Source: Gordius sp. MW1
Taxonomy: Eukaryota > Nematomorpha > Gordioida > Gordea > Gordiidae
DNA length: 64,000 nt
Reading direction: 5' to 3'
Assembly (NCBI GenBank): GCA_964036665.1
Contig: OZ038531.1
Span: forward strand, 17,174,168-17,238,167
The notes beneath the pieces are model-generated. The model had not been told where the DNA came from. It did not search any database and saw nothing but the letters and a program-made list of their open reading frames with translations. Positions 4,520 through 61,262 of the stretch are shown here, piece by piece (within the stretch, counting starts at the first letter, position 1; the number at the start of each line of letters is the position of its first letter). The translations under genes and the position numbers were made by a program.

Positions 4520-5560
4520 TGGCCAATGGTCATTTTTTCTCCATTGGTCAGTACCAACAGATACTCTATAAGTCAATGATAGCCAAAAAAGCGGAAAAAT
4601 AAATTTTGATGCTCACTTTGGCCAATGGTCATTTTTTTCCATTGGTCAGCAGCCAGCACACGGTAAAAGTGGATATAAATTCATAAGAGTAAAAAAAACG
4701 AAAAAAAAATTTTCGAATCACATTTTGGCCAATGGTCATTTTTTTCCATTGGTCAGCAGCAAGGACACGGTAAAAGTGGATATAAATTCATAATAGTCAA
4801 AAATAAAAGAAAAAAAATTTTTCGAATCACATTTTGGCCAATGGTCATTTTATTCCATTGGTCAGCAGCCAGCGGACGGCCAAAAAGTCATAATAGCAAT
4901 GGTAGGAACAAGAACAATCAAAATAGTCAAAAAAAACGAAAAAATAATTTCGTCACATTTTGGCCAATGGTCATTTTTTCCATCGCTCAGGAGCCAGCGG
5001 ACGGCCAAAAAGTCATAATAGCAATGGTAGTAACAGGAACAAACATAATAGTCAAAAAAAAGAAAAAATAAACTCGGATTCACATTTTGGCCAATGGTCA
5101 TTTTTTTTGGTCAGCAGCCAGCGGACGGCCAAATCTTATTATCAATGATAGTAACAAGAACAATCATAAGAGTCAAAAAATACTCCGGGATTCTAACCCA
5201 AAAACTAGTTAAATTGCATAGCAATTAAAAGTAAACAACTTTTATTCATGTTTATTATATAATAAAATGAAACAATAATAGAACAAGCGTCGGCCAAAAA
5301 GTCATAATAGCAATGGTAGGAACAGGAACAATCATAATAGTCAAAAAAAAAGGAAAAAAATAATTTCGATTCACATTTTGGCCAATGGTCATTATTTCCA
5401 TCGGTCAGGAACCAGCGGACGGCCAAAAAGTCATAATAGCAATGGTAGTAACAGGAACAATCATAATAGTCAAAAAAAAAACGAAAAAAAACAACTCGGA
5501 TTCACATTTTATGGTCATTTTTTTCATTGGTCAGCAGCGAACGGCCAAAAAGTCTTATTA
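4520..5560 (+). repeat. Tandem array, unit about 110-127 bp
   Basis: Each unit starts with TTTTGGCCAATGGTCATTTT, then a CCAT(T/C)GGTCAG block, then GCGGACGGCCAAAAAGTC and an A-rich linker. GGCC starts are at 4727, 4836, 4962 and 5089, giving spacings of 109, 126 and 127; another unit begins at 5380 after an interruption. The CCAATGG/CCATTGG pair makes each unit capable of a short hairpin. Open frames on both strands across the array are by-products of the period. Confidence 0.8.
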
Positions 5561-5784
5561 TCAATGATAGTAACAAGAACAATCATAAGAGTAAAAAAAA
5601 ACTCCGGGTTTCTAACCCAAAAACTAGTTAAATTGCATAGCAATTAAAAGAACAACTTTTGTTTATGTTTATTAAATAATAAAATGAAACAATAATAGAA
5701 CAAGCGGACGGCCAAAAAGTCATATTATCAATGGTAGTAACAGGAAAAATATATTAATTTAATTTAAAAAATAAAATTTTTTTT

Positions 5785-6206: not shown

Positions 6207-6848
6207 TATTCAAATTTTCAAAGAACACGATAGATACGCATTACGTCATGAGGGTGCGTTTGAGTGACATTTTACTTGATTGTCTTAAGACTTAGAAATC
6301 TGCAATATAGTTTAAAACCTAGGCTCAGACCTACCAATCTCGCAGAAATTTTCATAAAAATTGGTCCAGTCGTTTTGGAAGAGTTGAATAACACCGTGAC
6401 ACAAGAATTTTATATATACAGATTATTTGCTAATTTTTATCATTTTTACATTCACTTTTTTGCACAAATAATGTAATTCCCACTCTCATAACAATTTTTT
6501 AAGGTTAGAGCAAAAAATGATAGTCAATCCTTATATTTGCATGCCAAACATCATGGTAAATGAATTGAAATACAAATATTTGTTATTTGATAAATTTATC
6601 CTTTACGAGATTGCAAGGTGCAAAACAGCTAATGTCAGTGAGAAAACCAAAATTATGTGAAATATTATTGTGAATAGAAATAACACCAATTTACCCACAT
6701 GCAAAACTATTTATTGAAATGATAATACAATAAGAATATAAATATGTATACTAATTTATAAAATATATTGAATGTAGTATATACAAGTTCTGAGAGCACA
6801 AAATTCTATCGTCCCTCAACTAAAAATAGAAAGATTAAATATCTAAAA
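6207..6848. other. AT-rich spacer with repeat end at 6346-6425
   Basis: The segment ATTGGTCCAGTCGTTTTGGA (6360-6379), closed by TATATACA, matches the 3' type end of the interspersed repeat seen at 37305 and 62455. The rest is AT-rich DNA downstream of UAP56. A candidate poly(A) signal is not distinct enough to call. Confidence 0.4.
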
Positions 6849-8782
<1,934 letters not shown>

Positions 8783-11053: not shown

Positions 11054-12172
11054 TTATATTTCTTCGATAAGTCTTGAAGGTGGACGAACGTCGCGTTTCG
11101 GGCGAGACGTTTGACCTAAGTTAAATTGACTCTTCTCCCCGGCTAATTCCGTCTCTTCTCCTGGCGTAAATGACAATTCAATTTCAACCTCCTCCCGAAA
11201 CGTAACTGACGCTGGTGGGGAAGAAGATTGTACAAGCTCTTGCCTATCTAAGAATCTATTCTTTGGTTGGTCGGCGTGCTTCCGCAATACCCTTCCATCC
11301 GCTTCCACTGATTAGGACAAAGGGTCCGTTCTGGTGATTACCGAACCCTCACGCCATCCGGGTCTCGTTTCATTCCCTACCCATACCGGCTGTCCTGAGA
11401 GAGATTCTCGAGTCTTTAATCCTTTGTTATGCCGTTCCTTGGTTGACCAAACCTGTTTTTCCAATTGTGACTTAACCGGAGATCGTGCCCAATCCCAGGC
11501 CGTTTTCATATGTCGTCCAAACATTAGCTTATAAGGTGATGATCCTGTTGAATTTAAGGTGGTTATTCGGTAAGTCATCAAGACCTCTGACAAACATTCA
11601 TGAGAGCTCCTTCTACATTTTGGTACCGCGTACCTTTTCTTCAAAGTTTGAATTCCTCTTTCTGCTAACCCGTTAGTCTAAGGATGATATGGAGAAGATT
11701 TTATGTGAATGATGTTATTCTCCTTGCAATAATTTTAAAACTCTAGCCCAGTGAATTGAAGTCCGTTGTCTGATACAATTTGTCGAGGGACACCATACAG
11801 GGCAAACCACTCTAAGAGTTTGAAGAGAGGCCTGAGTTGTTGTTGACTGTAAAAGTTCAACATCCATCCATTTTGAAAACAACTACTATAACCAGGAATA
11901 CCCATCGATTGGTCCCGCAAAATGGATGTGAATCTTTCCCAAGGAGCCTCGGGGACATTCCATGAAAACAATGGAACTTCATTAGCTTCCCCACGATTCT
12001 GTTGACATGCTTTACAAGCATTCACAAATTTTTCAATCTCTGAACTCAGTTGAGGCCACCAGCAATAAAACCTAGCGATATATTTTATAGCCGATGTTGC
12101 GGGGTGACCTTTATGCCGATTTATTAATACTCGCTGCCGAAGGGATTGCGGTATAACAATCCGCCCATCCAT
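11054..12172 (-). pseudogene. Integrase of the gypsy element, frameshifted
   Basis: Frame 12172-11735 holds the zinc-binding HHCC region (HKGHPATSAI, then CKACQQNRGE) and the catalytic-core segment IVSDNGLQFTGLEF. Frame 11644-11312 continues the core with HECLSEVLMTYRITTLNSTG and SPYKLMFGRHM. Frame 11308-11054 is the C-terminal tail, ending RPPSRLIEEI. The pieces are in different frames, so no active integrase is encoded. Confidence 0.85.
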
Positions 12173-12188
12173 AAATAATAAATTGTTT

Positions 12189-12713
12189 TCACAGCTTAGC
12201 TCTGCGATTATAAAAGACCCCCAATTCTTGTGGGATATTCTTTTTGCGTGAGAGCCAACCTTTGTTTATAAAGTTCTTTATTTTACGCACTTTAAAATCC
12301 TTATCTGTTTCTTCACCCAAAGTCTTTTCCGATAGTGATATATCATTAAGGATAATATTTTTGATCCTTAGCATTGATAAATCATCACTGTTGTGAATAT
12401 CTTCTGAAAGGGGTAAGGGCACCCTTGAAAGTGCGTAAGCTGCTTTATTCTGTTTGCCTTCAATGTACTCCAATGAAAAATCGTAGGCCGATAACTGATA
12501 GGCCCAGCGCATCGATCGATTATTTACTATTCTCGGAAGATCCCTATTTTTTCCAAACAATCGAACTAAAGGTTTATGATCCGTTTTTATGATAAATTGT
12601 GAAATTCTTAACAATAGTAGCATAACTGTCCTCGGCGTTGGAAAGTGTTCTCGAAGCATATGCAATAGGACGCAATAGTCCAGCATCAAATGCATGTGAC
12701 AACACTGCCCCAA
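12189..12713 (-). pseudogene. RNase H domain of the gypsy element
   Basis: Contains FIIKTDHKPLVRLFGKN and the tether motif AYDFSLEYIEGKQN preceding ALSRVPLP, typical of Ty3/gypsy RNase H. The TDH catalytic residue is kept. It is separated from the RT by frameshifts near 12720-12860. Confidence 0.85.
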
Positions 12714-12858
12714 ATCCTTTATCAGAAGCGTCGGTTTCCAGCACCAAGGGCAAAGTTGGTGAATAAGGAATTAAGGTATTACAATTTTTTAAACGATTTA
12801 GCTTTTAAAAATATTTGCTTTTCATCCTGTGACCATACCCATCTAGATTTCGCACCAG

Positions 12859-13440
12859 TTAGTCGGTGCAATGGTGACAAAATACTGTAAGGCTATAAAT
12901 AAATTTTTCTTGGTAGCAAAGCATCCCAAGAAAAGATTTTAACTCGGATCTATTAGTGGGTCTTTTCGTTTCTAAAATGGCTTGTATCTTTGATCCGGAG
13001 GGATGGATCCCTTCTTTATCAATCACATAACCTAAAAATTCAACCGATTCTTCCAAAAACCGAATTTTGTTAAACTGTGCTTTAATTCCCGAATCTTTCA
13101 ATTTGAAAACTTTATTGACGTTTGCAATGTGCTCCTCGTCATTTTCGCCGGTGATTATTATATCAAGGTAAACTTCTGTCTTAGGACAATCTTTTAGTAA
13201 GTTGTCCATAAATTTCTAAAAAATGGCTGGAGCTGAAGACAAACCAAACGGAAGCCGACAGTATTTGTAATAACCCAAACTGATTGATATAACTAGGAGG
13301 TCTTGTGATTTCTCGGAAACAGGCATTTGCAGGTATGCATCCTTTAGATTGATTTTCGTGAACTTCCTTACTCCCGAAATTGTTGCGGCAACTTGGAATG
13401 TTGGGATATGATGATAATCTATAATTAAATTTGGATTCAC
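12859..13440 (-). pseudogene. Reverse transcriptase of the gypsy element, damaged
   Basis: Frames 13440-13216 and 13209-12859 carry KINLKDAYLQMPVSEKS, RLPFGLSSAPAIF and, downstream, FLGYVIDKEGIHP. The catalytic YxDD box reads YLDI-I: one aspartate codon is missing. Together with the frame change at 13210 this makes the enzyme inactive. Confidence 0.85.
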
Positions 13441-13470
13441 AGCTTGAAATCGGCACAGATACGGATGTCA

Positions 13471-14226
13471 TTATTTGCTTTCCTTACGATCGATTGGAGT
13501 AGCCCATTGAATTGGTGTAATATTGGGATCCACTAGTTTTAGCACACCTGCGATAACCAATTTTCTAAGCTCTTTCTCTAGAGGAGCTCGCAAGGGAAAC
13601 GGAACCCTTCTAGCTTGCCAAAATCTAGGAGTTGCATTTGACTTAATATGGATAACTATTGGTTGGCAAGAATTTATTAATCCCAATTTACCGTTAAATA
13701 TTATGCTATTTCCCTTCTCAAAATTTTTAGTAAGCGAGGTTTGATTGTTTACACTACTTAAATTATGAACTTCAACCATTGGGGGAAGTGATAAATTAAA
13801 AGATAAACTCCATGGTGAACCAAAAAGTGGTATCTCCTTGCCCTGGCTAACCATTACCGTTAAAACTTTTGTTCGCTTGCCCACTTGAACCTTCACCGTT
13901 GATTCACCCAATATCTCTAGAACTGTACAACCATATACTAGAGGTGGTAAGACATTTCTAAATACCGGCCGACCGATCTTTTTCCATAACGATGCATTAA
14001 TTACAGACACTTGAGCCCCTGTGTCAATATCCATCACTGTCCAGAGATCGTTGATTTTTACACTATTCGTAGCACGACGCCCTCGACTATTAATTTGGCA
14101 TATTGAATCCATAGAAACGGCATCATTATTATCACACCCGGTTATATATAATTGCTGAACCTTTGAATCGTCTTTACAACACCGGGCGTAATGTCCCCTC
14201 TTATTACACTTTCTGCAATACGCCAT
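13471..14226 (-). pseudogene. Nucleocapsid knuckle, protease and RT N-terminus
   Basis: An intact 251-codon frame opens with a CCHC knuckle (CRKCNKRGHYARCC), continues to the aspartic protease site DIDTGAQVSVINASLW and reaches the start of the RT region (ELRKLVIAGVLKL, then PIQWATPI). It is the longest uninterrupted frame of this element. Confidence 0.85.
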
Positions 14227-14377
14227 GAAGGCAGGACACTGATTTAGGCGATGATTCCTGTCGCAACGTTGGCATTTAAAAATCTTGTCGTTTTAAATGA
14301 CCTGTCGCCTTGCGTCCTCGATTTCTTTTGAACCATAGGAATATTTTCCTGAGTCTCCTTCTCAGCTCTTTCTATCG

Positions 14378-33745: not shown

Positions 33746-34562
33746 ATATATTTATAAATGACTAGCTGTGCTGCTAAATAATTAGTACGTATCAAAAGGA
33801 AATATATGAAGGAATTTGGGTCATCTGTAAGAGAGTTTATGATGTGAAAAAACATATTTTTATATTAAATAAATATTATTTAAATTAATAGGAAAAGCAG
33901 TGGCGTAGCTAGCTTTTTTCCTTGGGGGGCGGCGAGCTTTGATTTCACACAAGTGAGAAGGAGTCAAGCGCATTTAAAATTTTTCCCCTCATAAACGTTG
34001 GTAAAACTTAAAATTCCGCTATTACTTTGTTTATTTATTCTTAAAACATCACCTGGTTTAAAGTTTTATCTAATTAAGTCCATGTCTCAGATCCCTCATG
34101 TTTATAGGGCATAAAATAAATAAAATTTATTCAAAAATAAAACAAAGTAATGTATTCGAAACGATTATATAAAGACAATATAAAAATTTTCACATATTAT
34201 AGTAAGTTTGTGTATAAATGAATTGTAAGAGCACAAAATAGAACCATGTTTGATTAAATATAAGCAATCTCACAAAAATTAATAACACTGGGGAGTTATT
34301 TTTAAACTAAACATATTCTGTAATTATGTTCACTTGCGAATCGGTCTGGTTGTTTTCCAAAATTGGTGGCGGCATACACACACACATATATATACATAGT
34401 TTCAATTTTATCCATAAGATGTGTGTGTATGAAAATAAAATTGCAAAATTAATGGATTTAGCTACGAAATGACAGTTTATATAATGTACAAGAGTCAACA
34501 ATATTAAAACTCGAGGAAAATGGTAATTTTAATATTATGAAAACTTCGTCTCAAATGTGGTT
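33746..34562. other. Repeat segment shared with 59605-60430
   Basis: Includes a GTGGCGTAGCTAGC block (33901) and GGTGGCGGCATACACACAC (34365), present in the same order near 59773 and 60231. Part of a larger duplicated unit. No gene. Confidence 0.6.
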
Positions 34563-34913
34563 TCAGAATGTCACATATGTGGTTTCACCATTCTTAACTA
34601 TCATTGCCTGCTACTAACCTCGATACCAAAGATTTGGTTCATTTCCAAGTGCTATAACGAAATTTATTTTTTTGGATTATGATTTTCTAATGGTAGTTAA
34701 ATAAAGTGACTTACCTTCTAAAGTGTTTGGAACAGGTGCTAAAATAAATTGTAAAAATAGACATAGTAAACTATTTGTTCTGAGGAATTTGTTAAAATAT
34801 AATATAGAAATTAATAGTTGAAGTTAAATTTAATATTTTAATTAAATTCAATAATCTTTGCAATACCATACTTGAAGGATGAGTTTCCTTGGCTGGTTCA
34901 CCGTGTTGCACTT
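34563..34913 (-). pseudogene. Copy A of the microexon gene, 3' exons
   Basis: Four exon-like segments with GT-AG borders, all phase 1: 34913-34872 (42 nt, VQHGEPAKETHPS), 34738-34715 (24 nt, PVPNTLE), 34651-34619 (33 nt, LGNEPNLWYR) and a terminal exon 34597-34563 (KNGETTYVTF, stop TGA). The frame stays open across all four. No signal-peptide exon was found upstream; the LTR-like block at 34974 interrupts the presumed intron. It could be a 5'-truncated copy or exons of a longer gene. Compare 57294-58748. Confidence 0.5.
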
Positions 34914-34973
34914 CTACCAAATGTTCAAAAATTCAAATTCAATGTTTTTATTATTATTTAAAAACACTATCTC

Positions 34974-35435
34974 TAGCATATTTATTATATGCTGAATAAG
35001 AGATTAATTGATTTTCTTATTTTATCTTTATCTTTGTCAAATCATCCTCCTCCTCCTTCTAGTTAATGTTAAATTATATTTTTATGTTAATCTTCCTTCT
35101 TCTCCTACTTCTGTCGATAACACGCACGTAACATCAATCACGATCCTACTTATGTCGATAACACGCACGTACCATCAATCACGATTTAAAAAAGATATGT
35201 TATTTATATATGTATCTTATAATTGTCATGATGACTATTAATTTGTTAAAAAAGAATCGTTATTATAAGGATCAACAAGAATTTTTTTGGAATATATATC
35301 TATATCATCATGATTATCGGATTTGTGAAATACATATTATCGTATTCGAAATTATAAGGATCATTATAATGTTTGGAAAAGTTGATCGAACATTTGTCAT
35401 TATATAGATATCTAATAAAATTTGGGATTGAAAAA
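34974..35435 (+). repeat. LTR of gypsy c type, upstream copy
   Basis: Starts TAGCATATTTATTATATGCT and is nearly identical to 50156-50610. The flanking text on both sides is continuous in the locus at 57640-57690, which lacks the block, so it is an insertion. Confidence 0.65.
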
Positions 35436-36325
35436 TAGATGCGTTTAATAAAGTCAAAAATATCATATATTTCGATTGAAAGTTGAGAAAAATATTAATA
35501 AAATTAAATTTACTATGCAGCTGTGGTATAATAGGCTGACTATACACTATTCACCCCAGTCAAGATGAATGTTTTTTTCTTATCATGCTTTTAATTAACG
35601 TCCGCCGTCCAACGTCAGCAGGTGGTCAACGCGTTGCACATTCCACTTTCCACAATGCATGCCAAGCTAGGTATTTGAGCATGATAATTATTGGGATGAA
35701 TGCATTAGTCACGCATGTCATACTCCACATCCAAACAAATTCGTGCATTGTTTGCAATTTTATTCTCCTGCTCTCCGTCATGTCCTACCCATTTATGGAA
35801 TAAATATAAAGCATACATGCAGAAGATATCATTCATCGGAATAGTCATGCACATCCTAATATTAACACCTCAAATGCTACAACACTAAAACCAAACTTTA
35901 ATTATTATTGAAGATTTATGCTTACAAATTGGAAACAATGTTTTGACTCAATTGGGTATGCCTGCTAAATCAAGCAAAGCAAGTCTCTAGAGGTATGAAT
36001 GCCGCTTAATTTTAAGTGGGTAGAACAGCTAATATTATGACAAACCTTGTAACAATAATTATTGGTAACTTCGACATCTATTACGGAAAGAATTCTGGAT
36101 GATATATTCAAAAAAATTTTAATGTTCATGTAACATATAAGAAGTTGTAATAAAATATTATTTAAATTTCTAATTAACTATTGGACCCAGTTGATCCTAG
36201 CAGGTAATGACTGTGCCTTAAAGGGACTCAGGAGCAAAGGTCAGATGTGTTTAAAATTTTTTGTCCGAACCCGGCCCGGTTCAATTTTTTAACTTTATTG
36301 CCCGCCCCACCGCCCGAAACCTTCA
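35436..36325. repeat. Dispersed segment shared with 50611-51515
   Basis: Contains CAACGTCAGCAGG, GCATGCCAAGCTAGGTATTT and GTAATGACTGTGCCTTAAAG, in the same order as the other copy. Similarity stops at CGCCCGAAACCTT, inside a GCCCG-rich hAT-like field. Open frames here are conserved between copies only because the DNA is duplicated. Confidence 0.65.
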
Positions 36326-36390
36326 GCTGATTCGGTGGCTTGTAAAGTTGTGGCTCGTGAGCGTTTAGTGGCTAGTCTTTTGAAATCGGG
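36326..36390. repeat. Short dispersed repeat, TTCAGCTGATTCGGTGGC
   Basis: Text through GTTGTGGCTCGTGAGCGTTT is repeated at 61634-61700 and, partly, after the MITE at 36785-36840. Confidence 0.5.
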
Positions 36391-36777
36391 GTCAAACGTT
36401 ATAAAGACACTAATTATCAAACACCTAAAAACGAATCCGCAACTGACAAACATAAACCTCACAAATTAAGAATTAACGATGGATAGATGTCGTATTTGTT
36501 ATAAATTAAATCTCAAATGGGGAGGAAATTTGTGCATCTAACCCTAACCCTAACTTAAAACGCTGACCTAAAACACTACCCCGCTGACCTAAAACACTAC
36601 CCCGAAAGTTGAATTGAAAGGACTAAAAACACCCACCCCAACCCTAACCCTATTATAGAGTCTAATTATGGATTGATACCTAAGATCTACCTAAATTAAA
36701 AGCTTATATCATTATTTTTATAGAAATTTTTTGGTATTTTTAGGTGTTTTATTATTAGTGTCTTTATAACGTTTGAC
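36391..36777. mobile_element. MITE, 387 bp, GTCAAACGTTATAAAGACAC termini
   Basis: About 38 bp of inverted termini: GTCAAACGTTATAAAGACAC continuing to AAACACCTAAAAA, and the reverse at 36735-36777. The centre holds telomere-like CTAACCCTAACCCTAAC text. Related, shorter element at 52932-53112. Confidence 0.75.
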
Positions 36778-38692: not shown

Positions 38693-40489
38693 AATAAAAC
38701 TCGGGCCTTCGGCCCTCGTGGGAAGGGGAAGGGGAGGAGGGGAAGGGGAGGAGGGGAAGGGGAGGAGGGGAAGGGAAGGGAAGGGGGAACGACTCATCTA
38801 TACTCCGTATAAATGTATCATATTTGCTATGCAATTTATGGGCGAGAAAGGTAGGAAGGGGCGAGAATGCCTATAGGGGGGTATTAAATGCCTAATGATT
38901 AATTAATTATTTATACAAATTTTCCATTTATAGGCAAAATTTAATATAGGCAAAATGTAATATAGGCAAGGGTTAGGGTTAGATTTAGTGTTTGCATCTA
39001 GTTGCGTATTACCTTAGTTTTTATGGCCTTTAGTGATTGTGGATCTAACAAACATTATATTATAAAACATCACAATGTTAAAAATTTGCAGAATTGTTGG
39101 GAGAAATGTTTTGTTGAATTTGAACAATTTTTAATTAAAAAAATCAAAAATTTGGCCAATGGTCATTTTTTCTCCATTGGTCAGTACCAACAGATACTCT
39201 ATAAGTCAATGATAGCCAAAAAAAACGGAAAAAAAATTTTGATGCTGACTTTGGTCAATGGTCATTTTTTTTCATTGGTCAGCAGCCAGCACACGGTAAA
39301 AGTGGATATAAATTCATAAGAGTAAAAAAAACGAAAAAAAAATTTTCGAAACACATTTTGGCCAATGGTCATTTTTTTCCATTGGTCAGCAGCCAGGACA
39401 CGGTAAAAGTGGATATAAATTCATAATAGTCAAAAAAAAAACGAAAAAAAATTTTTCGAATCACATTTTGGCCAATGGTCATTTTATTCCATTAGCAGCC
39501 AGGACACGGTAAAAGTGGATATAAATTCATAATAGTAAAAAATAAACGAAAAAAAAATTTTCGAATCACATTTTGGCCAATGGTCATTTTATTCCATTGG
39601 TCAGCAGCCAGCGGACGGCCAAAAAGTCATAATAGCAATGGTAGGAACAGGAACAATCATAATAGTCAAAAAAAACGAAACAAAAATTTTCGAATCACAT
39701 TTTGGCCAACGGTCATTTTTTCCATCGGTCAGGAGCCAGCGGACGGCAAAAAATTCTTATTATCAATGATAGTAACAAGAACAATCATAAGAGTCAAAAA
39801 AATCTCCGGGATTCTAACCCAAAAACTAGTTAAATTGCATAGCAATTAAAAGTAAACAACTTTTACTTATGTTTATTATATAACATTGGTCAGCAGCCAG
39901 CGGACGGCCAAAAAGTCATAATAGCAATGGTAGGAACAGGAACAATCATAATAGTCAAAAAAAACGAAAAAAATAATTTCGATTCACATTTTGGCCAATG
40001 GTCATTTTTTCCATCGGTCTGGAGCCAGCGGACGGCCAAAAATTCTTATTATCAATGATATTAACAAGAACAATCATAAGAGTCAAAAAAAACTCCGGGA
40101 TTCTAACTAAAAAACTAGTTAAATTGCATAGCAATTAAAAGTAAACAGCTTTTTTATTAATGTTTATTATATAACTAGTTAAATTGCATAGCAATTAAAA
40201 GTAAACAACTTTTATTTATGTTTATTATATAATTGATAATTTAACAAATCTTATATATAACAAACCGAGGGAGAAAGAGATGAGGGGTGGGGCACCTCTT
40301 ATGCATTAATTTAAAAAATAACAGCGAGGGAGATAGAGATGAGGGGTGGGGCACCTCTTTCTTATGCATAGCAATTAAAAATCGATAACCTAATATACCC
40401 AATGCAAATAGATAGGAGGGTAACGGACGGACGGACAACGGACGGACGGACACCAAAAAACGAGCCCATAAATTGCATAGCAATTAATA
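38693..40489 (+). mobile_element. Helentron/HINE-like repeat inserted in the reversed LTR of d
   Basis: Left end AACTCGGGCCTTCGGCCC (hairpin), conserved TTGCTATGCAATTTATGGGC block, tandem array (39150-40030, GGCCAATGGTCATTTT units) and right end GCCCATAAATTGCATAGCAA (40465-40484). The LTR text continues on each side (CGTTTTCGATCAGATGATAA to the left, AATAATAAGATGTTAACAGG to the right). Confidence 0.65.
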
Positions 40490-41541: not shown

Positions 41542-42800
41542 TTAAATGAGCACATGAGGTCGCAACGCAGACGGAATTACTATATTTTTGTTGCGTAGTA
41601 ACATGTTGCTGTTGACCTCCAGTTCATTTATCAAGCTTCGATAAGTAGAGGGTACCGTTTCTAGCGTACTTTTTCCCGTCATGTAATTTAACACCAAAAT
41701 TAAGTTTGGATCCTCTTGGGTTAATTTTGCAAGATCGCCATCGCTGCAATTTTGTGTTTTTACGTTTACCTCTGCGAAGTTTTCGCCTTCTAACTCTTCG
41801 TATGTTAGGCCATCATTATCGTTTCCCAATCTTGATAATGTGTCTGGCAAGTGATTTGACTTACCTTTGCGGTATCTAATGTTGCATTGAAATTTCCCAG
41901 CGCTAATAACCATTTTTGCAGCCTCGGATTTAACAATAGATCCCTATTCCTTTGCAAAAAGTGATACCAGCGGTTTATGGTGGGTAAAAATATCGAAACT
42001 TCGATCAATTAAGTATTCACGGCAACGGGTCAAACTCACTCCTACCGCCAAACTTTCCTTTTCAATCACCGAATAATTAAGTTCTGCCTTGGAAAATTTT
42101 CGTGAAAAGTATAGGATTGATTAGGTGTTCTTCCTAACCGATTACATGCAATAGCACACCGCCTACACCTAGCTGAGACGCATCCATCACTACGGCTAAT
42201 GGTAGATCGGGAACAAACATGTTAGAACAGGACCTTTTGTTAAAATCTTTTAACGCATCGAACGCTTCCTGCTCCTTGGTCCGCCATACAAATTTTAACT
42301 TGTCCGTCGTTAACAAGTATAAAGGTGCTGCTATCTCCGCGATGTGAGGCATAAACTTGTTGTAGTAATTCACCGACCCAAGAAAGGATAGTGCCTCTTT
42401 CTTATTTTGAGGTGGTCGCATTTTAAGGATCGCATCCACTTTGCTTTGTAAGGGACGAACGACTCCATCACCCAATTGATGTCCCAAATATTTTAGTTCT
42501 GTCACTCCTATGGCGCATTTGCTACGCTGTACCCGTAAGCCTCGTCCCTGTATTCGTTCCAACACTGCCAACAAGTTATTATGGTGCTCATTCATTGTAG
42601 CTCCCACTACAAGAACGTAGTCTAAGTAGTAAAACACACCAGAAAGACCTTGATACGCCATGGTCTTCTGAAACACGGGCGCACTTAGGCTGAGACCGAT
42701 AGGCAGTCTTTTAAAAAACGCGAACAAGCCTAAGGACGTGTTTATTGTGGTCAACTTCGACGAGCGTTTATTTAACTTGATTTGGAGGTAAGCGTTAGCA
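41542..42800 (-). pseudogene. RT 3' half, RNase H and integrase start of element d
   Basis: 42823-42134: KLDFANAYLQIKLNKRSSKL, RLPIGLSLSAPVFQK, GVFYYLDYVLVVG (catalytic YLDD is YLDY), FLGSVNYYNKFMPHIAEIA, then VVMDASQLGVGGVLLH of RNase H. 42008-41542: FNATLDTAKVSQ region in one frame, then FQCNIRYRKGKSNHLPDTLS and an integrase-start-like IVIPSALRPHVLI. The integrase core is missing. Confidence 0.85.
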
Positions 42801-43852
42801 AAGTCCAACTTAGAGATCTGCACGGGCAGGCCCGGCCCGCGGATGGGGCCTAAAAGCCCGTCCCGCGGACGGGTACGGACGGGCTTTATGTCATAAAAAT
42901 TTTAACGGGCGGGGCCTGGACGGGCTTAACAATTAATGGAACGGGCTCCGGCGGGCCTGATTTTTTCTTAACGGGCTTGAACGGGCCTGACGCTTTATAA
43001 ACGGACTTGAACGGGCCATAGATTATATAAACGGTCAGGGAATTACAAAAAAGGTCCTTAAAAGTCAGACAATGATATAAATATATAATTTTTATAAAAT
43101 ATATAGATTATTAATTGTTTAATTTTTGTAAATCATGTAGCATTTATTCCTTTTTCAAGCGCTAAATTTGCTTTAAAACATTTTTATTCTATTTGCTTGA
43201 GATTTTTGTTTACATAATTTAAAATTATAGCTTCTTATATTCTTTTATAAGTAAGCTCAATTATTTAGTTACAATGCACCAAAATTTTTGTGTTTAATTT
43301 GATTACAAATTTTACTTGTATAATTAAAGGCTATATAATTTAATAAATATTTTTGTTCTAATCTAAGACTTAGGTTTTTTGTGTTTAATTTTATTACAAA
43401 TTTTACTGGTATAATTAAAGGCCATATAATTTTCTAATCTAAGACTTAGGTGCATTAACTGATATAAAATAACCAAATCAATGTAAACTGCTTATTGAAA
43501 GTTAAATATTCTCATGTAATTTTATTAGAGTATTTGAAATAATGGAATATTCTAACTTCTTAGGTGTATTAACTTAAATTAATCAAATACAAGTAAATCG
43601 TTGAAAGTGGAATATTCTTATGTAATTTTTTATAGTAATATAAAGTACTATATTTAAATTTTTAGGTGTATTCTGCGGAAATAATTGATGATTTATTTTT
43701 TTTGCATGATAATTATTATTGATGTTTTTTATGAATATGTCATAAAATAAAATTATGCGAAATTTTTGATAGATTGGGCAGGGCGCGGAGACTTTTAAAA
43801 AAAAATTGAACGGGCTTGAGCGGGCCAGACGTTTTTCTAAACGGGTACGAAC

Positions 43853-45302: not shown

Positions 45303-46215
45303 CTAGTCCAACTTACTAAAATATTTTGCCCCTGTGAGATTTGCGAAAATTTCTTCGATTATGGATAAGGGAAACTTTATTTCTACCCACGGGTTAAGCG
45401 AAACTCTGTAGTCCGCGCAAAGGCGCAAGCTGCCATCGGGCTTTTTGACGGGTAACAGTGGCGTAGCCCATTTGCTATATTTTACCGGCTCGATCATTCC
45501 TTGCTCTATCCACTGTAACAAGATGGCTTCTACTTTCTCCCACCAAACAAATGATAATCTTCCTGGCCAAAACCTTGTTACAGCGTCTGGCTTCAGTAGG
45601 ATATCGTACTCGTATGCCCTTAGGCATCCAAGCTCGTCTACAAAGATAGACTTGAACCTTTCCGTCATCCGCTGTAGACTTCCTGACCAACTATTCAGGG
45701 ACCGGACTGCATCGCCACTCATAAGATTAAGAGTGTCGGTAGAAGATGTCGGTTGATCCCCCAACTCCGTCTTTACCGATAGTCCGTTTATTTCAGCTCC
45801 GAGAGAGGTAGACTTTAGAGCCCAAGCCATACATGGCATCCTTAAGAGGTTCCTACTTGCTCCGCCGAAATCCTTTTCACCCATTTCCTGTGGTCCATTA
45901 CATTGGATCTTCTCACACAAGCCAAACCAATTGTTTAACGGCCCTATTACTTTAAGCCATTCCCACCCTAAATTGGTTTAATCTCAACGGACGTAATATA
46001 CAAGGGTAATACTAGCCTTTTAATCCCTACCTCTACCTCAGCCATAACCTTTCACACTATTTTTTTTCTCCCCCGTCTACCTGCCTAGCCCTAATATTCG
46101 TTTTCTCCCATTTCTTATCCGGCCAGTAGACTTAAATTTTGTTTCGCTTATTAGCGATATGGTTGCTCCACTGTCTCCTAACCTTTCAAATACCTTATTG
46201 TCTATTTTTAATTTA
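45303..46215 (-). pseudogene. Protease and RT 5' half of element d
   Basis: 46215-46140 encodes ERLGDSGATISLISETKF, an aspartic protease site. 45920-45303 (205 codons) carries YDILLKPDAVTRFW, then EQGMIEPVKYSKWATPLLPV and KKPDGSLRLCADYR and stops at KYFSKLD, where the hAT element interrupts. Confidence 0.85.
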
Positions 46216-50155: not shown

Positions 50156-50610
50156 TGTAGCATATTTATTATATGCTGAAAAGAAATTAAATTGATTTTT
50201 TTATTTTATCTTTCTTTGTCAAATCATCCTCCTCTTCCTTCTAGTTAATTATTTTTGTGTTAATCTTCCTTCTTCTCCTACTTATGTCGATAACACGCAC
50301 GTACCATCAATCACGTTCCTACTTATGTCGATAACACGCACGTACCATTAATCACGATTCAAAAAAGATATGTTATTTATATATATATATAATTGTCATG
50401 ATGACTATTAATTTGTTAAATAAGAATCGTTATTATAAGGATCAACAAGAAAATTTATTGGAATATATATCTATATCATCATGATTATCGGTTTTGTGAA
50501 CGTATTCGAAATTAATGATCATTATAATGTTCGGAAAAGCTGATCGAACATTTGTCAATATATAGAAATCTAATAAAATTGGGATTGAAAAATTAAGCAG
50601 TAGTTTTGAA
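50156..50610 (+). repeat. 3' LTR of gypsy c
   Basis: Starts TGTAGCATATTTATTATATG directly after the polypurine tract. Near-identical to 34974-35435; a truncated relative is at 60845-61262. Confidence 0.7.
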
Positions 50611-51515
50611 AATCTTTAGGTGCAACCGTTTAATAAAGTCAGAAATATCATATATTTTAATTGAAAGTTGAGAAAAATATTAATAAAATTAAATTTACTA
50701 TGCAGCTGTGGTATAATAGGCCAACTATACACTATTCACAGTCAAGATGAATGTTTTTTTCTTATCATGCTTTTAATTAACGTCCGCCGTCCAACGTCAG
50801 CAATTATAAGTGGTCAACGCGTTGCACATTCCACTTTCCACAATGCATGCCAAGCTAGGTATTTGAGCATGATAATCATTGGGATGAATGTATCAGTCAC
50901 GCATGTCATACTCCAAATCCAAACAAATTCGTGCATTGTTTGCAATTTTATTCTCCTGCTCTCCGTCATGTCCTACCCATTTATGGAATAAATATAAAGC
51001 ATACATGCAGAAGATATCATTCATCGGAATAGTCATGCACATCCTAATATTAACACCTCAAATGCTACAACACTAAAACCAAACTTTAATTATTATTGAA
51101 GATTTATGCTTACAAATTGGAAACAATGTTTTGACTCAATTGGGTATGCCTGCTAAATCAAGCAAAGCAAGTCTCTAGAGGTATGAATGCCGCTTAATTT
51201 TAAGTGGGTAGAACAGCTAATATTATGACAAACCTTGTAACAATATATAATTATTTGCAACTTCGACATCTATTACAGAAAGAATTTTGGATGATATTCC
51301 AAATATAATATTTAATGTTCATGCAACATGTAAGAAGTTGTAATATAATATTATTTAAATTTCTAATTAACTATTGGACCCAGTTGATCTTCTAGCAGGT
51401 AATGACTGTGCCTTAAAGGGACTCAGGAGCAAAGGTCAGATGTGTTTAAAATTTTTTGTCCGAACCCGGCCCGGTTCAATTTTTTAACTTTATTGCCCGC
51501 TCCACCGCCCGAAAC
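50611..51515. repeat. Dispersed segment shared with 35436-36325
   Basis: Starts ATCTTTAGGTGCAACC, the same text as the microexon-gene intron at 57661 (ATCTTTAGATGC), then follows the other copy to CGCCCGAAACCTT. Confidence 0.6.
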
Positions 51516-52460
51516 CTTCTAAGTGTCCGCCTGCGCCCGCCCGATTATTAGAGCTGCCCGGCACGAAATATTAAATTTACTTGTTATGCCCGAATTTATG
51601 CGAGCCCAAATTCTTTCGACCACTATTAAAACATAAGCCTTAAATTAATAACATAAATAAAACAAATATAGCAATATTTTATTATCACAAACAAAATCAA
51701 AATTCCTATATTATTTTAAAAAATGAGATACGATTTTTTCAAATGAAACTTTTAATCTTTAATTTTAATCCTAATAGTTCAACAAAAAATATGCCAAGCG
51801 TTTCTATCACTGGCAAATCGCTCATGGGTCACAAAATTTTTATAGATTAATTGCTAATGCATTTTAGTACAACACGTTAGAACGTTTGCAAATCATTTAA
51901 CAGCAAAATATTAATTGGATGCAGCCTGTTCATGAAAATATTTATGTAGCTTTTAATTAAAATTAAAGTATACATATTTTAGAAATTTATTACAATAAAC
52001 AAAATTAGACACCCCTTTTGGGTAATGCCGTTTATCAAATAGATTTTTTAATGAATAAAATTAATTCAATTAGTCAAATTCTGTGCTCTGTTAATACTTA
52101 CTTTTTAGATAAAAAACAATAATTTATCAATAGAATTTAAATGTAATATATGGAGAAATTTTTTTATTTAAAGTAAAAAATATAGGTATGGAAATTAATT
52201 ACACGGTTAAACAAGAAAAATCAACCGGCAAACTGTTTGCAGATTCTGATAGAGTTTTTTTACGGGACTACAAATTATATTTTTTAACTTCATTGCCCGC
52301 CCGGGCCCGCCTGAACCCTTCTTAGTGTCCTTCAGGGCTCGCTCGAATCGTTAAAGCTGCCCGAATAGCCCGGCCGGAAATATAAAATTTGCCCGTTAGG
52401 CCCGAATATATGGCAATCCCAAATTCTTTCAACCACTATTAAAACATAAGCATTAAATTA
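51460..52460. mobile_element. hAT-like GCCCG-rich terminal fields, two diverged copies
   Basis: 51470-51660 and 52270-52460 share TTTAACTT(T/C)ATTGCCCGC, AGAGCTGCCCG/AAAGCTGCCCG and CCCAAATTCTTTC-ACCACTATT. Dense GCCCG motifs in AT-rich DNA are typical of hAT ends; transposase text was not found between them. Confidence 0.45.
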
Positions 52461-54960: not shown

Positions 54961-57293
54961 AAAGACCATATGTAGGTATCTTCATTTCCCCATATTTACC
55001 ATCATTTTTCTTAGTGCGAAAATCAATGTGGATTTGCCCCAATAAATTACCTTTTTGCTATAAAATATAATGGGAAAAATTTTTATTTGAAGCAAAAAAT
55101 GGTATGGGAATTAATTATGTACTATAAAAATAAGTAATAACGTAAATAGGAGAATAAAAAGGGCGAATTGCGAAATGGGGCAAAAAATTGATATAGAAAT
55201 TAATTATTATAGAAATTAGGAATAAGTAATAGCGTAGATTAGAGAATAAAAAAGCCAATTGCAAAATGGAGAAGCTTTGTTAAACCAAAAATTAAATGAC
55301 TTAGAATTTAACACTTACTTATATGTGCATGTGAAAATGGCATGACGTCTTTGTTTTAAGTTTAGACGACACACATGTGTATTGCGAACAATGAAAGGGC
55401 TATATAAATAAAAATTAGCTAAGGATCTGAAAGAAATGGAGTCGGGCAAAGATTATAAAAATAACTTGGGAAAGGGTGGCAAAATTATGGTATTTTAACA
55501 TTTTAAACATTCTCGATATACAATCTAATAAAAAAGTGACAAAATAATATACTATGTTTTTACTTAAATTATGACCGAATCGCCCGATTCTTATCAGCGT
55601 GCACGCCCGGGCCCGCCGGAAAATTAAAATTTAAGACAGTTGCACGGCCCGGCCAGTGGGCCGGGAACGGGATGGGCCGGGCTTTTCTGGTCTGTGCACA
55701 AATTGTTTTTCAAATTTATATTTAGTCTTAGGCTTATGATTTAATATGTTTACCCCTAATTAAAAATATTAAAATAATCAAATATGCATAATTGAAGATA
55801 GGGATAAGGGGTGAATAAGATTGTACTTGACTAGCTCACAACCGTTGCCAGCACTGGCAGTAGTTTGGTGCTAGAATACAGTAGAAAAACAACAACACAC
55901 ACTTAATTTCTAGTGTTAAAGGGAAAAGAGGGAGGCCTCAAGTCTGGGGTAAAAAGATGAGGCATAATTTAAAAATTAGTGCTAGGATAAATTAAATTTT
56001 TTAATTGATTACTCTCCCCTTTATCTACGTCAAATCTATTCAACCAATTTTTTATCGATAAATTTACTAGTTATTGATGTTTGAAAAACCCTGAAATCGC
56101 TGTTTTGGCAACTTTGACAGCGGATATTCGAAAAACTTGCCGTATAGGGGAAAAACAGAAATATATTTGTGTTCGCCGTGAAAAACTCCACCAGAATCTG
56201 TAAATAAAGTTCAATATTTGTTGACGAGTGTTATTATAAAATTAAGTAATAGCTTAGCGATAGCCACGAGTTATAAGGGATTGCGAATTGGGGAAGCTTT
56301 GTTAAACCAAATTTGTTTGTAAGAAATTAAATGTAATTAGAACGAAATTTAACACTTGCATGCATTGTGTGAATTTGGACCTAGGCGGCACATGAGAATT
56401 ACGAACAATAATAGGGCTACATAAATTTAAATATTTCAATCCTTTCCATGAATGTACCTAGGGACTTGATGGAAATAGGAGGGTTTATAAAAATAACTTA
56501 GGGACGGGTGGCAAAATCAAGACCTATCTTTTTCAGCATTTTCCATATACAATCAAATAAAAAAAGTAACAAAATAGTACACTATCTAAAAAATCTCTAA
56601 GCCCGAATTGCCCCAATCTTATCATCGTTCCCGCCCGGGCCCGCCCGAAAAATAATTTGCGACAGCCGGGCATTGTCTCTGCTCAAGAGGGCCTATGAGT
56701 TTTGATGCCAGTAGTATATAAAAAATAAGAAGGGACTCGGGCTGGCATTGAAATTTAAAAATGGGTACGGAAACGGACTGTTGCATTATTTAGTGACTAT
56801 CATATATGTTATATTTATAAAATTAATGTATTAAAAAGTAAAAGTACATAAATTTAAATTTCACATAAGTTGATTCAATCACATCTGATTAACTTTATGC
56901 TTTTAATCCTAGTTTTTACCTAGCTTTTTGTTGATTTGAAAAATAATAATTATTATTATATATGTGCCTAGGCCTACACATATTATGTCATCAGATAATT
57001 CCTATATTTTACTTGGATACGATAGGAAACAATAAAACAGAAAACGTTTTGAATTGATTTATTGATCAAATATATGCGATAACAATGTATATAAGCATAT
57101 TATGAAAGATATTAATTTGTATAATAAATGTGTGTGTATGAAAATAGAATGCAAAATTAATGGATTTAGCTACAAAATGCTGAGTTTATATAATGTAAAA
57201 GAGGCAACAATATTAAAAGTTAAGGAAAATGGTATTTTTAATATTATTAGAACCTCGTCTCAGATGTGGTTTCAGACTACATATCTGGTTCAA
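54961..57293. other. Repeat debris: hAT-like GCCCG fields and diverged duplications
   Basis: GCCCGGGCCCGCC fields at 55598-55690 and 56630-56670. Related text around 55080-55290 and 56230-56330 (AAGTAATAGC, GAAGCTTTGTTAAACCAAA) indicates old local duplication. 57060-57180 repeats 31310-31345 and 34400-34500 (GCGATAACAATGTATATAAG; AAAATTAATGGATTTAGCTAC-like text). No gene. Confidence 0.45.
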
Positions 57294-58748
57294 TTAATAT
57301 CGAGTAGGCGGGTGACGCCAACTTGCATAATAATATTGTTCAGTTTCTAGTTCTATGACAAAATTTATTTTTTTGGATTATGATTTTCTAATGGTAGTTA
57401 AATAAGGTGACTTACCTACTAAAGTGTTTGGAACAGGTGCTGAAATAAATTAGAAAAATAGACATAGACTATTTTCTGAGGAATTTGTTAAAATATAATA
57501 CAGAAATTAATTTTAGTTGAGTGACTATAAATTTAATATTTAGATTAAATTCAATAATCTTTGCAATACCATACTTGAAGTTTCCATGGCTGGTTCATCG
57601 TGTTGTACTTCTACCAGATGTTCAAAAATTGAAATTCAATGTTTTTATTATTATCTAAAAATATCTTTAGATGCAAAAAGTCAAAAATATCTTATATTTA
57701 AATTGAAAGTTGAAATATTAATAAAATTAAATTTCTTAAAATATGTCTTTCACAACTATGTAATAAATATTTCGTCAATTAATAAAAGCTAATATCCAGA
57801 ATTTGGTTATTTTATTAACACCTCAAATAAATGATCAAATATTTGAGTTTTATAATCATAGACTACATAGACTGCTCATGTCATATGTTTCATATGGTAA
57901 ATGTGTACCATTAAATCCACCATTTTTGAATTTAAGAATTTACCTTTCTCATTAATTAATAAATAAAAAGAATGTTAATAAATGATTATTTAATAAATTC
58001 AGATGGCACTAAATTGCTTTAACATCACATCATCAGAGTATTTTTATTTTTTATTTTTATAAATTTTGTAAATGATAAATATTTTAAAATGCTCTTTAAA
58101 ATATTTAACTAGTTCACTATTTTTATATTTTTTATTACGTTTCAAAAACCCTTTATTTAACCAAAATTACCATTTTGCGCAAATTTCAAAATAACGGAAA
58201 AAGGTACACTTGTTTATAGTTGATGAGCAGTCTATCTAGTCTATGTTTATAATAAAGATAAATAAGAATTATGTATGGTGACAGCTTTAATGGACATTTC
58301 AAAATTTTAAACGTTGTATAAAATTGTAAAAAATATGAGCTATGATTTAGCCAAAAATTAATTCAGAATCATTTACCATCTATGGCAGATTTGGGGGCTA
58401 AATAATAAAAGATAAAGTATATACGCATATTTTAGTATTATTAAATTTTATTAATTAATTTTTACTTGTCACAACAGTCGATGCATTTTCTAAGCCGCAA
58501 AGTTTAATTATAAATTGTCTAGAAAATAAGCTTACCAGCTTGGGTAACTGCTGCAGCTATACGATCTATAAAAATTCAAAATTAAAATACATTTACAGAC
58601 GTTATGTCGTATGTTTTTTAAAATTTTACCAGTTGCGGGAGCTAAACGGTTTTTAAATTTATATAAGTACATTCATTATAAACTTAAATATACCTGATAA
58701 AACAGTTGAGAGGAACAAGGTGCTTAAGATGATGCTGAAACGGTTCAT
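57294..58748 (-). CDS. Predicted secreted microexon protein, 78 aa, 7 exons
   Basis: Exons (minus): 58748-58694 (55 nt), 58641-58630 (12), 58565-58536 (30), 58397-58377 (21), 57610-57575 (36), 57439-57416 (24), 57352-57294 (59, stop TAA). Every intron is GT-AG and phase 1, so each internal exon is a multiple of three. Exon 1 encodes MNRFSIILSTLFLSTVLS, a typical signal peptide with cleavage expected about there. Later exons give PAT, RIAAAVTQA, PKSAID, VQHDEPAMETS, PVPNTLV and LETEQYYYASWRHPPTRY. No domain is recognised; the mature part is about 60 residues and acidic in the middle. The layout resembles the microexon genes of schistosomes and the effector genes of some sap-feeding insects, but homology to either is not shown. 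The joining of exons 4 and 5 across a 766-nt intron is the weakest step. Confidence 0.6.
57857..58245. mobile_element. MITE, 389 bp, in the microexon-gene intron
   Basis: Termini CATAGACTACATAGACTGCT and AGCAGTCTATCTAGTCTATG, with exact 8-bp duplication TTTATAAT (57849-57856 and 58246-58253). Same terminal family as 23034-23343. Without it and its duplication the intron between exons 4 and 5 would be about 370 nt. Confidence 0.8.
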
Positions 58749-59337
58749 TGTTAATAAAAGAGTCTTAGTATTTAAGTAATATGCGATAACGGTAAATGAA
58801 TTAAATGTTAGAATGGAATGGATTACTTAGGAAAGCTTTTTATAGTGTGATCAGATCATGAATAATATGTTTACAAGATTAATATATGAAAGTTCATCGC
58901 CTTTCTCCTTGAAGTACATTCCCTTAAATTTTGGCTAACATAAGCTGTTTTATTTGCCAAAAATTAATCGAAATAAATAAAATAGCTATAGGGGATCAAA
59001 AATATTTTAAAAATTTTGTTAGGTTCAACGGTAAAATAACACTTTGTTTTTGCCAAATTAGGTGTGCAAGATTGAAAAATATTATTTTGAACTTCAAAAT
59101 ATTCTTGGCAACAATAGTAAGAGAAACATGTTTTGAATATTTTAATTAACTTTCCTTAATTATTACCGATAAAAATATTTAATTTTTATTTCTTGCACGA
59201 TTTAGATCAAACCCGATCAAAACGACACGTAAAATTCAAATTAATAGATTGTACGTTATGCATCATTACTTATTATTGAATGCGAATTTCATTTAAGCAT
59301 GAGTTTGATATAAACCTATAACTTTTCTTTATCAAGT
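58749..59337. other. Upstream region of the microexon gene
   Basis: Likely 5' UTR and promoter side. AT-rich; a 72-codon frame at 58931-59149 shows no recognisable feature and is treated as chance. Confidence 0.35.
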
Positions 59338-59605: not shown

Positions 59606-60430
59606 CTTGTTATAAATATATTTATAAATGTACTAGCTGTGCTGCTAAATAATTAGTACGTATCAATAGGAAATATATGAAAGAATATGGGACATCTGTA
59701 AGGTTTATGATGTGAAAAAACATATTTTTATATTATGCAAATAAATATTATTTAAACTAATAGGAAAAGCAGTGGCGTAGCTAGCCTTTTTCCTTGAGGG
59801 GCGGCGAGCTTTGATTTCACACAAGTGAGAAGGAGTCAAGCGCAATTTAAAATTTTTCCTCTCATAAACGTTGGTAAAACTTAAAATTCCGCTATTACTT
59901 TGTGTATTTTTTCTTATAACATCGCACTGGTTTAAAGTTTTATCTAATTAAGTTCATGTCTCAAATCCCTCATGTTAATAGGACATAAAATAAATAAAAT
60001 TTATTCGTAAATAAAACAAAGTAATGTATTTGAAACGATTATATAAAGACAATATAAAAATTTCACATATTTTTAGTAAGTTTGTGTATAAATGAATTGA
60101 AAGCACAAAATGGAATCGTTTGATTAAATATTAGCAATCTCACAAAATAACACTGGGGAGTGATCTTTAAACTAAACATATTCTGTAAATATGTTCACTT
60201 GCGAATCGATGTGTTAGTTTTCCAAAAGTGGTGGCGGCATACACACACACACACGCATATATACATAGTTTCATTTTTATACATGAGATGTGTGTGTATG
60301 AAAATAAAATTGCAAAATTAATGGATTTAGCTACGAAATGACTGAGTTGTAAATATAAAAGAGTCAACAATATTAAAACTCTAGGAAAATGGTATTTTAA
60401 TATTATGAGGACTTCGTCTCAAATGTGGTT
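59606..60430. repeat. Repeat segment shared with 33746-34562
   Basis: Same order of blocks (CTAGCTGTGCTGCTAAATAA, GTGGCGTAGCTAGC, GTGGCGGCATACACAC) with small indels. No gene. Confidence 0.6.
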
Positions 60431-60784
60431 TCAGAATGTCACATAAGTGGTTTCACCATTCTTAACTATCATTGCCTGCTACTAACCTCGATACCAAAGA
60501 TTTGGTTCATTTCCAAGTGCTATACCAAAATTTATTTTTTTTGGATTATGATTTTCTAAAGTTAAATAAGGTGACTTACCTTCTAAAGTGTTTGGAACAG
60601 ATGCTGAAATAAATTGTAAAAATAGACATAATAGACTATTTGTTTGGAGGAATTTGTTAAAATAGAGAATAGAAATTAATTTTAGTTGAAGTGACTATAA
60701 ATTTAATATTTTAATTAAATTTAATAATCTTTGCAATACCATACTTGAAGGATGAGTTTCTTGGCTGGTTCATCGTGTTCACTT
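60431..60784 (-). pseudogene. Copy B of the microexon gene, 3' exons, frameshifted
   Basis: Exon-like segments 60784-60745 (40 nt), 60603-60580 (24), 60519-60487 (33) and 60465-60431 (terminal, KNGETTYVTF) match copy A with splice sites kept. The first segment has lost two single bases relative to copy A (42 nt), which breaks the phase-1 frame, so this copy is taken as dead. Confidence 0.5.
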
Positions 60785-60844
60785 CTACCAAATGTTCAAA
60801 ATTTCAAATTCTATGTTTTTATTATTATTTAAAAACACTATCTC

Positions 60845-61262
60845 TAGCATATTTATTATGTGCTGAATAAGAGATTAATTGATTTTCTTATTTTATCTTT
60901 GTCAATTCATCCTCCTCCTCCTTCTAGTTAATGTTAAATTCTATTTTCATGTTAATCTTCCTTCTTCTCCTACTTATGTCGATAACACGCACGTACCATC
61001 AATCACGATTCCAAAAAGATATGTTATCTATATCGTATAATTGTCATGATGACTATTAATTTGTTAAAAAAGAATCGTTATTATAAGGATCAACAAGAAA
61101 AATTATTGGAAAGTATATCTATATCATCATGATTATCGGATTTGTGAAATATATATGATCGTATTCGAAATTATAATCATTATAATATTTGGAAAAGTTG
61201 ATCGAACATTTGTCAATTATAAATATCTAATAAAATTTGGGATTGAAGAATTAAGCAGAAGT
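60845..61262 (+). repeat. LTR of gypsy c type, truncated
   Basis: TAGCATATTTATTATGTGCT to GAAGAATTAAGCAGAAGTTT, parallel to 34974-35435 and 50156-50610, at the same place relative to the microexon exons as in copy A. Confidence 0.6.

Follow-up and report, generated by a model that had tools for sequence, protein, structure and literature searches.

The minus-strand gene at positions 57294-58748 of the window, by which we mean the whole 64,000-nucleotide stretch analyzed here, is probably an intact member of an orphan family of horsehair-worm microexon genes, whose variable secreted product most likely acts where worm and host meet. The predicted structure of this gene, hereafter q, is strongly supported by its relatives in the same genome. 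For the family, the best reading is one of independently evolved genes, similar to the microexon genes (MEGs) of Schistosoma, that encode secreted and probably disordered peptides at the host interface. Compact, leader-bearing, and fast-changing, the family provides a concrete list of candidates for the study of how horsehair worms live inside arthropods and steer them.

Structure of the gene

The model of q comprises seven exons of 55, 12, 30, 21, 36, 24, and 59 nt, which splice to a frame of 78 codons and a stop. Each of the five internal exons is preceded by AG and followed by GT, lies in phase 1, and has a length that is a multiple of three. Exon 1 (58694..58748) encodes a hydrophobic leader, MNRFSIILSTLFLSTVLS, plus the first base of a split codon; the leader occupies the first 18 codons, ends with the exon, and has a mean hydropathy of about 2. 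It is followed by exon 2 (58630..58641; CTCCCGCAACTG, residues A-P-A-T), exon 3 (58536..58565; DRIAAAVTQA), exon 4 (58377..58397; APKSAID), exon 5 (57575..57610; EVQHDEPAMETS), a cassette exon of the "QND" type, and exon 6 (57416..57439; TPVPNTLV). The coding part of exon 7 (57294..57352) specifies a hypervariable tail, ELETEQYYYASWRHPPTRY, and ends in TAA; this last exon has a second in-frame acceptor 6 nt downstream of the first. On the same strand, a TATA-type promoter element, ACTATAAAAAGC, lies at 58835..58846, its last base 87 bases upstream of the A of the ATG, and the conserved 3' end of the gene contains a polyadenylation-signal-like sequence with AATAAA, CAATAAATCAATT, at 57052..57064.

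Five of the six exons of q that precede a junction end in G, as do 16 of 19 in the long relative C7g described below (both by reading). Because nearly all exons end in G, split codons nearly always start with the same base, so that an exchange of modules barely affects the residue at the junction. Exons could therefore be skipped, lost, or duplicated with that residue mostly unchanged and, because every internal exon is symmetric, with the frame intact. By analogy, exon skipping possibly occurs in transcripts.

Intron 4 holds a MITE-like transposon copy (57857..58245, minus strand), whose inverted ends, CATAGACTA and TAGTCTATG, were recognized by reading the termini. The element has many copies genome-wide. 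By eye, it alone takes at least 50 of the at least 61 matches of the whole gene in the genome, a lower bound on its copy number given that 40 of 2212 candidates were scored.

Relatives in the genome

Searching the genome with the two ends of q, 5' and 3', returned nine leader-bearing copies, two copies of the 3' half, and smaller fragments; the family is therefore small. The leader-bearing copies are q itself, on contig C5; C1, on the contig of the same name; and seven copies on contig C7, namely, C7a and C7b at 18.2 Mb, C7c and C7d at 1.71 Mb, and C7e, C7f, and C7g at 18.23, 18.29, and 18.36 Mb. The two 3' halves, C5a (34385..34976) and C5b (60255..60847), lie on the minus strand of the window; no leader was detected in either, and both are probable relics. 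The earlier note on this DNA had proposed a genome-wide search for phase-1 exons of less than 45 nt beside a similar leader. A leader pattern derived from the copies, with up to three mismatches, gave nine matches in 212 Mb, and its reversed control gave none; a pattern for the cassette exon, with one mismatch, gave 12 matches genome-wide, all inside family copies, and again none in the control. That note had also raised the possibility that the exons at 58.4-58.75 kb and those at 57.3-57.6 kb belong to different transcripts. The paralogs argue against such a split, since the 5' and 3' halves of the gene stay together and in the same order in C1 and in C7a-C7d, on two other contigs.

By reading, CACTATAAAA is found in seven of the nine leader-bearing copies (q, C1, C7b, C7c, C7d, C7e, and C7g), altered in C7a, and absent from C7f. 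The letters of CAATAAATCAATT are identical in six of eight aligned rows (q, C1, and C7a-C7d); the rows of C5a and C5b stop short of it. Five leader-bearing short genes are open through to differing tails. Exon loss or decay is under way in some members: a 1-base change in exon 1 breaks the frame of C7a, two single-base deletions reduce exon 5 of C5b to 40 nt, C5a is leaderless, C7f is TATA-less, and C7e and C7f have lost exon borders.

Conservation of splice sites and exon lengths

We aligned nine copies over the 5' part of the gene and eight over the 3' part, q included. Of the 85 paralog cells aligned with the 12 splice dinucleotides of q (eight paralogs in the 5' half and seven in the 3' half, with gaps set aside), 83 retain the dinucleotide, versus 135 of 239 cells for the other AG and GT dinucleotides that q has in aligned non-coding sequence and that are covered by at least five letters in the other rows (Fisher p = 7.5e-15, with related copies treated as independent). 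The two departures are the exon-4 acceptor, lost in C7g, and the exon-5 acceptor, altered in C7a.

Lengths are conserved as well. Exon 2 keeps its AG, its GT, and its 12 nt in all eight paralogs, with A, P, S, or T as the third residue; exon 3 keeps both splice sites in all eight and measures 27 nt in C1 and 30 elsewhere. Among the five paralogs that have exon 4, which is 15 nt long in C1, the AG is kept in four and the GT in five; this exon was not found in C7b, C7c, or C7d, where the best match reaches 11-12 of 21 letters and shuffles reach 13. Exon 5 is 42 nt long in six of seven paralogs, an in-frame difference from the 36 nt of q. Exon 6 measures 24 nt in all eight aligned copies, and its two splice sites, like the acceptor of exon 7, are kept in all seven paralogs. 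Overall, 39 of 40 aligned copies of exons 2-6 are divisible by three, in a count that leaves out the three genes without exon 4; the sole exception is exon 5 of C5b, and all other length differences between copies are of 3 or 6 nt and preserve the frame. From the letters alone, the earlier note had read seven minus-strand segments with AG/GT borders in phase 1, a hydrophobic leader, a 78-codon frame, and symmetric internal exons of 12, 30, 21, 36, and 24 nt. Its lengths and borders match our model, the leader fills exon 1 with 18 residues, and the family counts given here bear the reading out.

Tests against chance

In AT-rich DNA, sites that resemble splice sites might line up by chance into a series of exons this tiny, or such exons might belong to a spliced non-coding transcript. 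We searched by dynamic programming for chains of symmetric exons and compared the scores with those of 60 dinucleotide shuffles. In phase 1, the chains scored 98.1 in C7g, 88.9 in C7f, 69.1 in C7e, and 66.8 in q, versus best shuffle scores of 21.0, 18.7, 21.3, and 17.0, respectively. All four genes beat all shuffles, and phase 1 scored highest in all four. The splice model is not wholly independent, since its training set left out C7e-C7g, or q, yet included the corresponding sites of their relatives. Much of the score comes from the splice sites as such, which is why phases 0 and 2 likewise exceeded the shuffles.

When exon length was left free, 12 of 13 exons in C7g, 11 of 12 in C7f, and 9 of 12 in C7e were multiples of three; in q alone the count was 4 of 7 (p = 0.17, not significant). 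Exon symmetry is shown by the family, not by q alone. This last count would suit a chance or non-coding origin, yet the conservation among paralogs and the shuffle tests make such an origin hardly credible.

Long relatives and the QND cassette

C7g, in a model assembled by eye, has 20 exons and 205 codons. Its 18 internal exons measure 12-63 nt, some exceeding the 36 bp described for MEGs, and all are divisible by three and in phase 1. Compared with this model, the chain search recovered 10 of the 18 internal exons exactly and 2 with one border different, missed 6, and added 1. In the predicted product, short linkers alternate with exons that carry the motif Q-N/H/T-D-x-P/A. This "QND" motif occurs seven times in C7g, four times in C7f, three times in C7e, and once in q. 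In 300 shuffles the motif turned up 0.007 times on average and at most once, against seven occurrences in 2.8 kb of C7g and none on the opposite strand, for a pattern that was defined after the motifs had been noticed.

Of the 18 internal exons of C7g, C7f retains both borders for 15 and C7e for 11. Exon 5 of q and its flank match the exon 11-12 region of C7g at the DNA level, and exons 6 and 7 of q resemble exons 13 and 14 of C7g in order and residues (xPxPxT, EL..). We infer that the final exon of the short genes corresponds to one that, in the long genes, lies internally and is spliced onward, so that the tail would read into a former intron. A leader followed, in C7g, by a short repeated motif also recalls neuropeptide-like precursors, with the repeated QND exon as the active peptide. 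This is very improbable: by reading, no paired basic cleavage sites flank the repeats, and q has the motif only once.

Rates of change in exons and introns

Introns and UTRs are better conserved between copies than particular exons. In the tail region, q and C5a differ at 32 of 82 sites versus 34 of 370 in non-coding sequence (p = 5e-10). For the last exon, the corresponding figures are 26 of 98 versus 75 of 826 between C7b and C7c (p = 3e-6) and 15 of 104 versus 36 of 873 between C7c and C7d (p = 1e-4). In these three close pairs, the terminal exon changes about 3-4 times as fast as the neighboring non-coding DNA. The reverse holds for the tail of C5a/C5b (1 of 90 versus 27 of 372 in non-coding sequence). 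Eight of the ten pairs compared have the last exon, which is faster than non-coding DNA in seven and reversed in C5a/C5b; for the distant pairs among these, values of 0.5-0.6 come close to saturation and draw partly on sequence that cannot be aligned, and some 3' UTR is counted in the "last" region. Exons 1-6 together are slower than non-coding DNA in eight of the ten pairs, the exceptions being C7b/C7c and C7f/C7g.

The long genes have a fast exon of their own. Between C7f and C7g, 156 of 2136 intron sites differ (7%), as do 23 of 513 sites in the other exons, counted without exon 12. Exon 10 differs at 20 of 60 sites and by 3 nt in length, with its borders intact; exon 12 differs at 25 of 42 sites, with its borders lost in C7f. 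In exon 10, about 21 changes fall on 47 replacement sites and 1 on 13 silent sites (p = 0.021, uncorrected). In exons 1-3, 5, and 6 of the short genes, replacement change exceeds silent change in six of nine pairs and does not in three; the strongest case is C7b/C7c, with 19 replacement changes in 122 sites and 1 silent change in 40 (p = 0.028, uncorrected). For the last exon of C7c/C7d, the figures are 12 in 49 and 1 in 11 (p = 0.43, not significant). Overall, most modules change about as fast as introns or more slowly; much higher rates are seen in the terminal exon of the short genes and in exon 10 of the long ones.

These rates bear on an alternative in which the loci are decaying segmental duplicates, with introns conserved through young duplication and tails divergent through lost constraint. 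Decay would fit the frame change and altered TATA element of C7a, the single-base deletions of C5b, the failure to detect a leader in C5a and C5b, the borders lost in C7e and C7f relative to C7g, and the several 3' relics inside the window. However, decay predicts exons that change as fast as introns, not some 3-4 times faster as in q/C5a, C7b/C7c, and C7c/C7d; the five short genes and C7g are open; and splice sites are retained. As an account of the whole family we consider it improbable.

Predicted peptides and homology searches

We examined six conceptual peptides (q, C1, C7b, C7c, C7d, and C7g). In each, the leader fills exon 1 with 18 residues (19 in C1) and has a mean hydropathy of 1.95-2.31; on the basis of this hydropathy, the mature peptides are presumably secreted. 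The mature parts are 54-187 residues long, consist of 22-28% S/T/P, and are net acidic by 1 to 25 charges. Cysteine is absent from five of the six; C1 has two, without CYC by reading. N-x-S/T sites number four in C7g, two in C7d, one each in C1 and C7c, and zero in q and C7b. The peptides are probably disordered and may be glycosylated.

A secreted product of this kind could instead be structural, forming a glycosylated, disordered coat in mucus, egg string, cuticle surface, or adhesive, with a length that varies as exons are gained and lost and no role toward the host. Its S/T/P content in all six peptides, the N-x-S/T sites in four of them, the lack of cysteine in five, and cassette repeats resembling those of mucin-like proteins all fit such a coat. 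Yet fast replacement change concentrated in single exons would be unexpected for a plain coat protein, and q and C7b have no N-x-S/T site at all. We regard a structural role as unlikely, though it deserves to be kept in mind, and prefer a product that acts at the host interface.

Neither q nor C7g matched a Pfam family at E values of up to 1. Among 5.8 billion proteins, no homolog was found at E <= 1 for C7g (679 candidates) or for an alignment of five short peptides (3063 candidates), in a search that needs shared 5-residue words, which very remote kinship could escape, and in collections from which the spliced products of tiny exons may be absent. The earlier note had likewise seen no recognizable similarity and had suggested an independent family of variable secreted peptides. 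Its suggestion gains support from the variable C termini and the lack of a homolog in these searches, with secretion predicted from hydropathy.

The assembly and its source

The assembly comprises 211.8 Mb in 12 contigs, with the window on contig C5. In the terminal 2 kb of eight large-contig ends, TTAGGG arrays exceed 300 units at six and number 54 and 2 units at the other two; three smaller contig starts have 0, 0, and 2 units. The mitochondrial contig is C12 (14.8 kb). It encodes a COX1 that matches Gordius sp. VVA-2019 with 95% identity over 97%, and the best four matches are all hairworms (95, 87, 81, and 80%); the remaining 116 of the best 120 matches, among at least 7999 scored, have at most 67% identity. 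The source is accordingly a horsehair worm (Nematomorpha), neither insect nor fluke. An insect origin (aphid or gall midge) was set aside because of the COX1 match, the long TTAGGG arrays, and, weakly, a search for RR-type cuticle domains that gave no match here or in any control genome. Flatworm, tunicate, and bryozoan, which had been weighed on telomere repeats and (by reading) mitochondrial code, were discarded after the COX1 result. C12 also carries perfect inverted repeats of 108 and 95 nt, at 3264-3499 and 6700-6889. Long perfect inverted repeats are an oddity described for hairworm mitochondrial DNA (PMC6649704). By reading, the repeats of C12 fall in ND1-like and ATP6-like frames. We assume that the nuclear contigs come from the same animal as the mitochondrial contig.

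Comparison with known gene families

Schistosoma MEGs have two long flanking exons around central microexons of less than 36 bp, 26 of 33 of which are symmetric in one set, with a leader in the first exon and many products that are S/T/P-rich and disordered (PMC4671649). Their exons measure 6-81 bp and are mostly multiples of three (PMC10526429), and their dN/dS is elevated (PMC4350168). The hairworm family shares the leader in exon 1 and the symmetric microexon core (PMC4671649, PMC10526429), as well as small S/T/P-rich peptides. The coding parts of q (12-36 nt) and C7g consist mainly of microexons divisible by three, and the leader, judged on hydropathy, lies mostly or wholly in the first exon. 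In contrast to the MEGs, the family belongs to a different phylum, with no detected sequence relationship, and all internal exons of q and C7g are in phase 1. The hydrophobic motif that follows the MEG leader (PMC10526429) was not seen in the hairworm peptides by reading. Homology to flatworm MEG proteins was not found at E <= 1 for C7g or the five-sequence alignment with the 5-residue-word method.

Aphid bicycle genes are under strong positive selection and contain many very small internal exons whose first base is codon position 2; many members carry two CYC motifs, their proteins change rapidly and are unlike any known proteins, and Hormaphis cornu has 476 such genes (PMC9168663). Codon position 2 is likewise where every internal exon of q and C7g begins, and the hairworm proteins also change rapidly, with no similarity to known ones found in the searches above. 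Unlike the bicycle genes so described, the family lacks the paired CYC motif in the six peptides examined, has nine leader-bearing copies rather than 476, and resides in the genome of a hairworm, not an aphid. A third point of comparison is the SSSGP genes of the Hessian fly, which have a conserved promoter, UTRs, leader, and intron, a diversified mature part, and clustered copies (PMC2955719). The hairworm genes resemble them in part. Their copies are clustered, and the last exon is less conserved than non-coding DNA in seven of the eight pairs that have it (reversed in C5a/C5b), but exons 1-6 together are more conserved than non-coding DNA in eight of ten pairs. They differ from the SSSGP genes of that account in that most SSSGP groups have one intron, versus 6 in q and 19 in C7g, and in that diversification is limited to some exons.

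As read from their sequences, the hairworm genes have the design of MEGs and bicycle genes and, for the fast exons, the pattern of SSSGP, with no detected shared sequence. The schistosome microexon genes and the effector families of gall or sap-feeding insects that the earlier note had named are fair as analogs. Among the open-access papers listed by our literature searches, we found no account of hairworm microexon genes. As a practical caution, standard gene predictors and homology searches run exon by exon easily overlook exons of 12-48 nt.

Possible role at the host interface

Hairworms are parasites of arthropods and lead their hosts to water (PMC10380579). The leader of q would direct a short, acidic, S/T/P-rich, and probably unfolded peptide to the secretory pathway. 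From one set of symmetric modules, many peptides could be made by evolution and perhaps also by alternative splicing. By analogy with known systems, the variable product most likely acts at the worm-host interface, where it would serve as a decoy for, or a modulator of, arthropod host tissue or immunity.

A more far-reaching proposal is that horsehair worms have independently evolved a modular, phase-locked microexon effector system that acts on the arthropod host, which would be a third origin, in a third phylum, of this kind of gene design for host-interface proteins. Many peptides could arise through exon skipping, exon loss, and fast single exons, perhaps for use in immune evasion or behavioral manipulation. 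We advance this proposal only tentatively and consider it somewhat doubtful at present. Provided that the family has no kinship with MEGs or bicycle genes, it would add a third case in which phase-1 symmetric microexons go with host-interface proteins. Such a case would make it testable whether this architecture is favored for letting modules be exchanged with the frame intact.

Other features of the window

Three related copies of 1-1.4 kb, at 34300-36400, 50158-51519, and 60166-61251, carry 3' relics or flanks of the microexon gene; 41-bp tandem repeats lie at 35103 and 50276, inside the first two. Two large tandem arrays with a similar unit of 107-128 bp occupy 4585-5750 and 39218-40175, about 35 kb apart. 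Pieces of Ty3-type retroelement frames were recognized by reading on the minus strand at 11735-14292, 42134-42901, and 45303-45977. A helicase-like stretch at 8080-8380 (minus strand), which we take to resemble the DDX39/UAP56 type, includes a further match to the cassette motif at 8240 (minus strand); this match was set aside.
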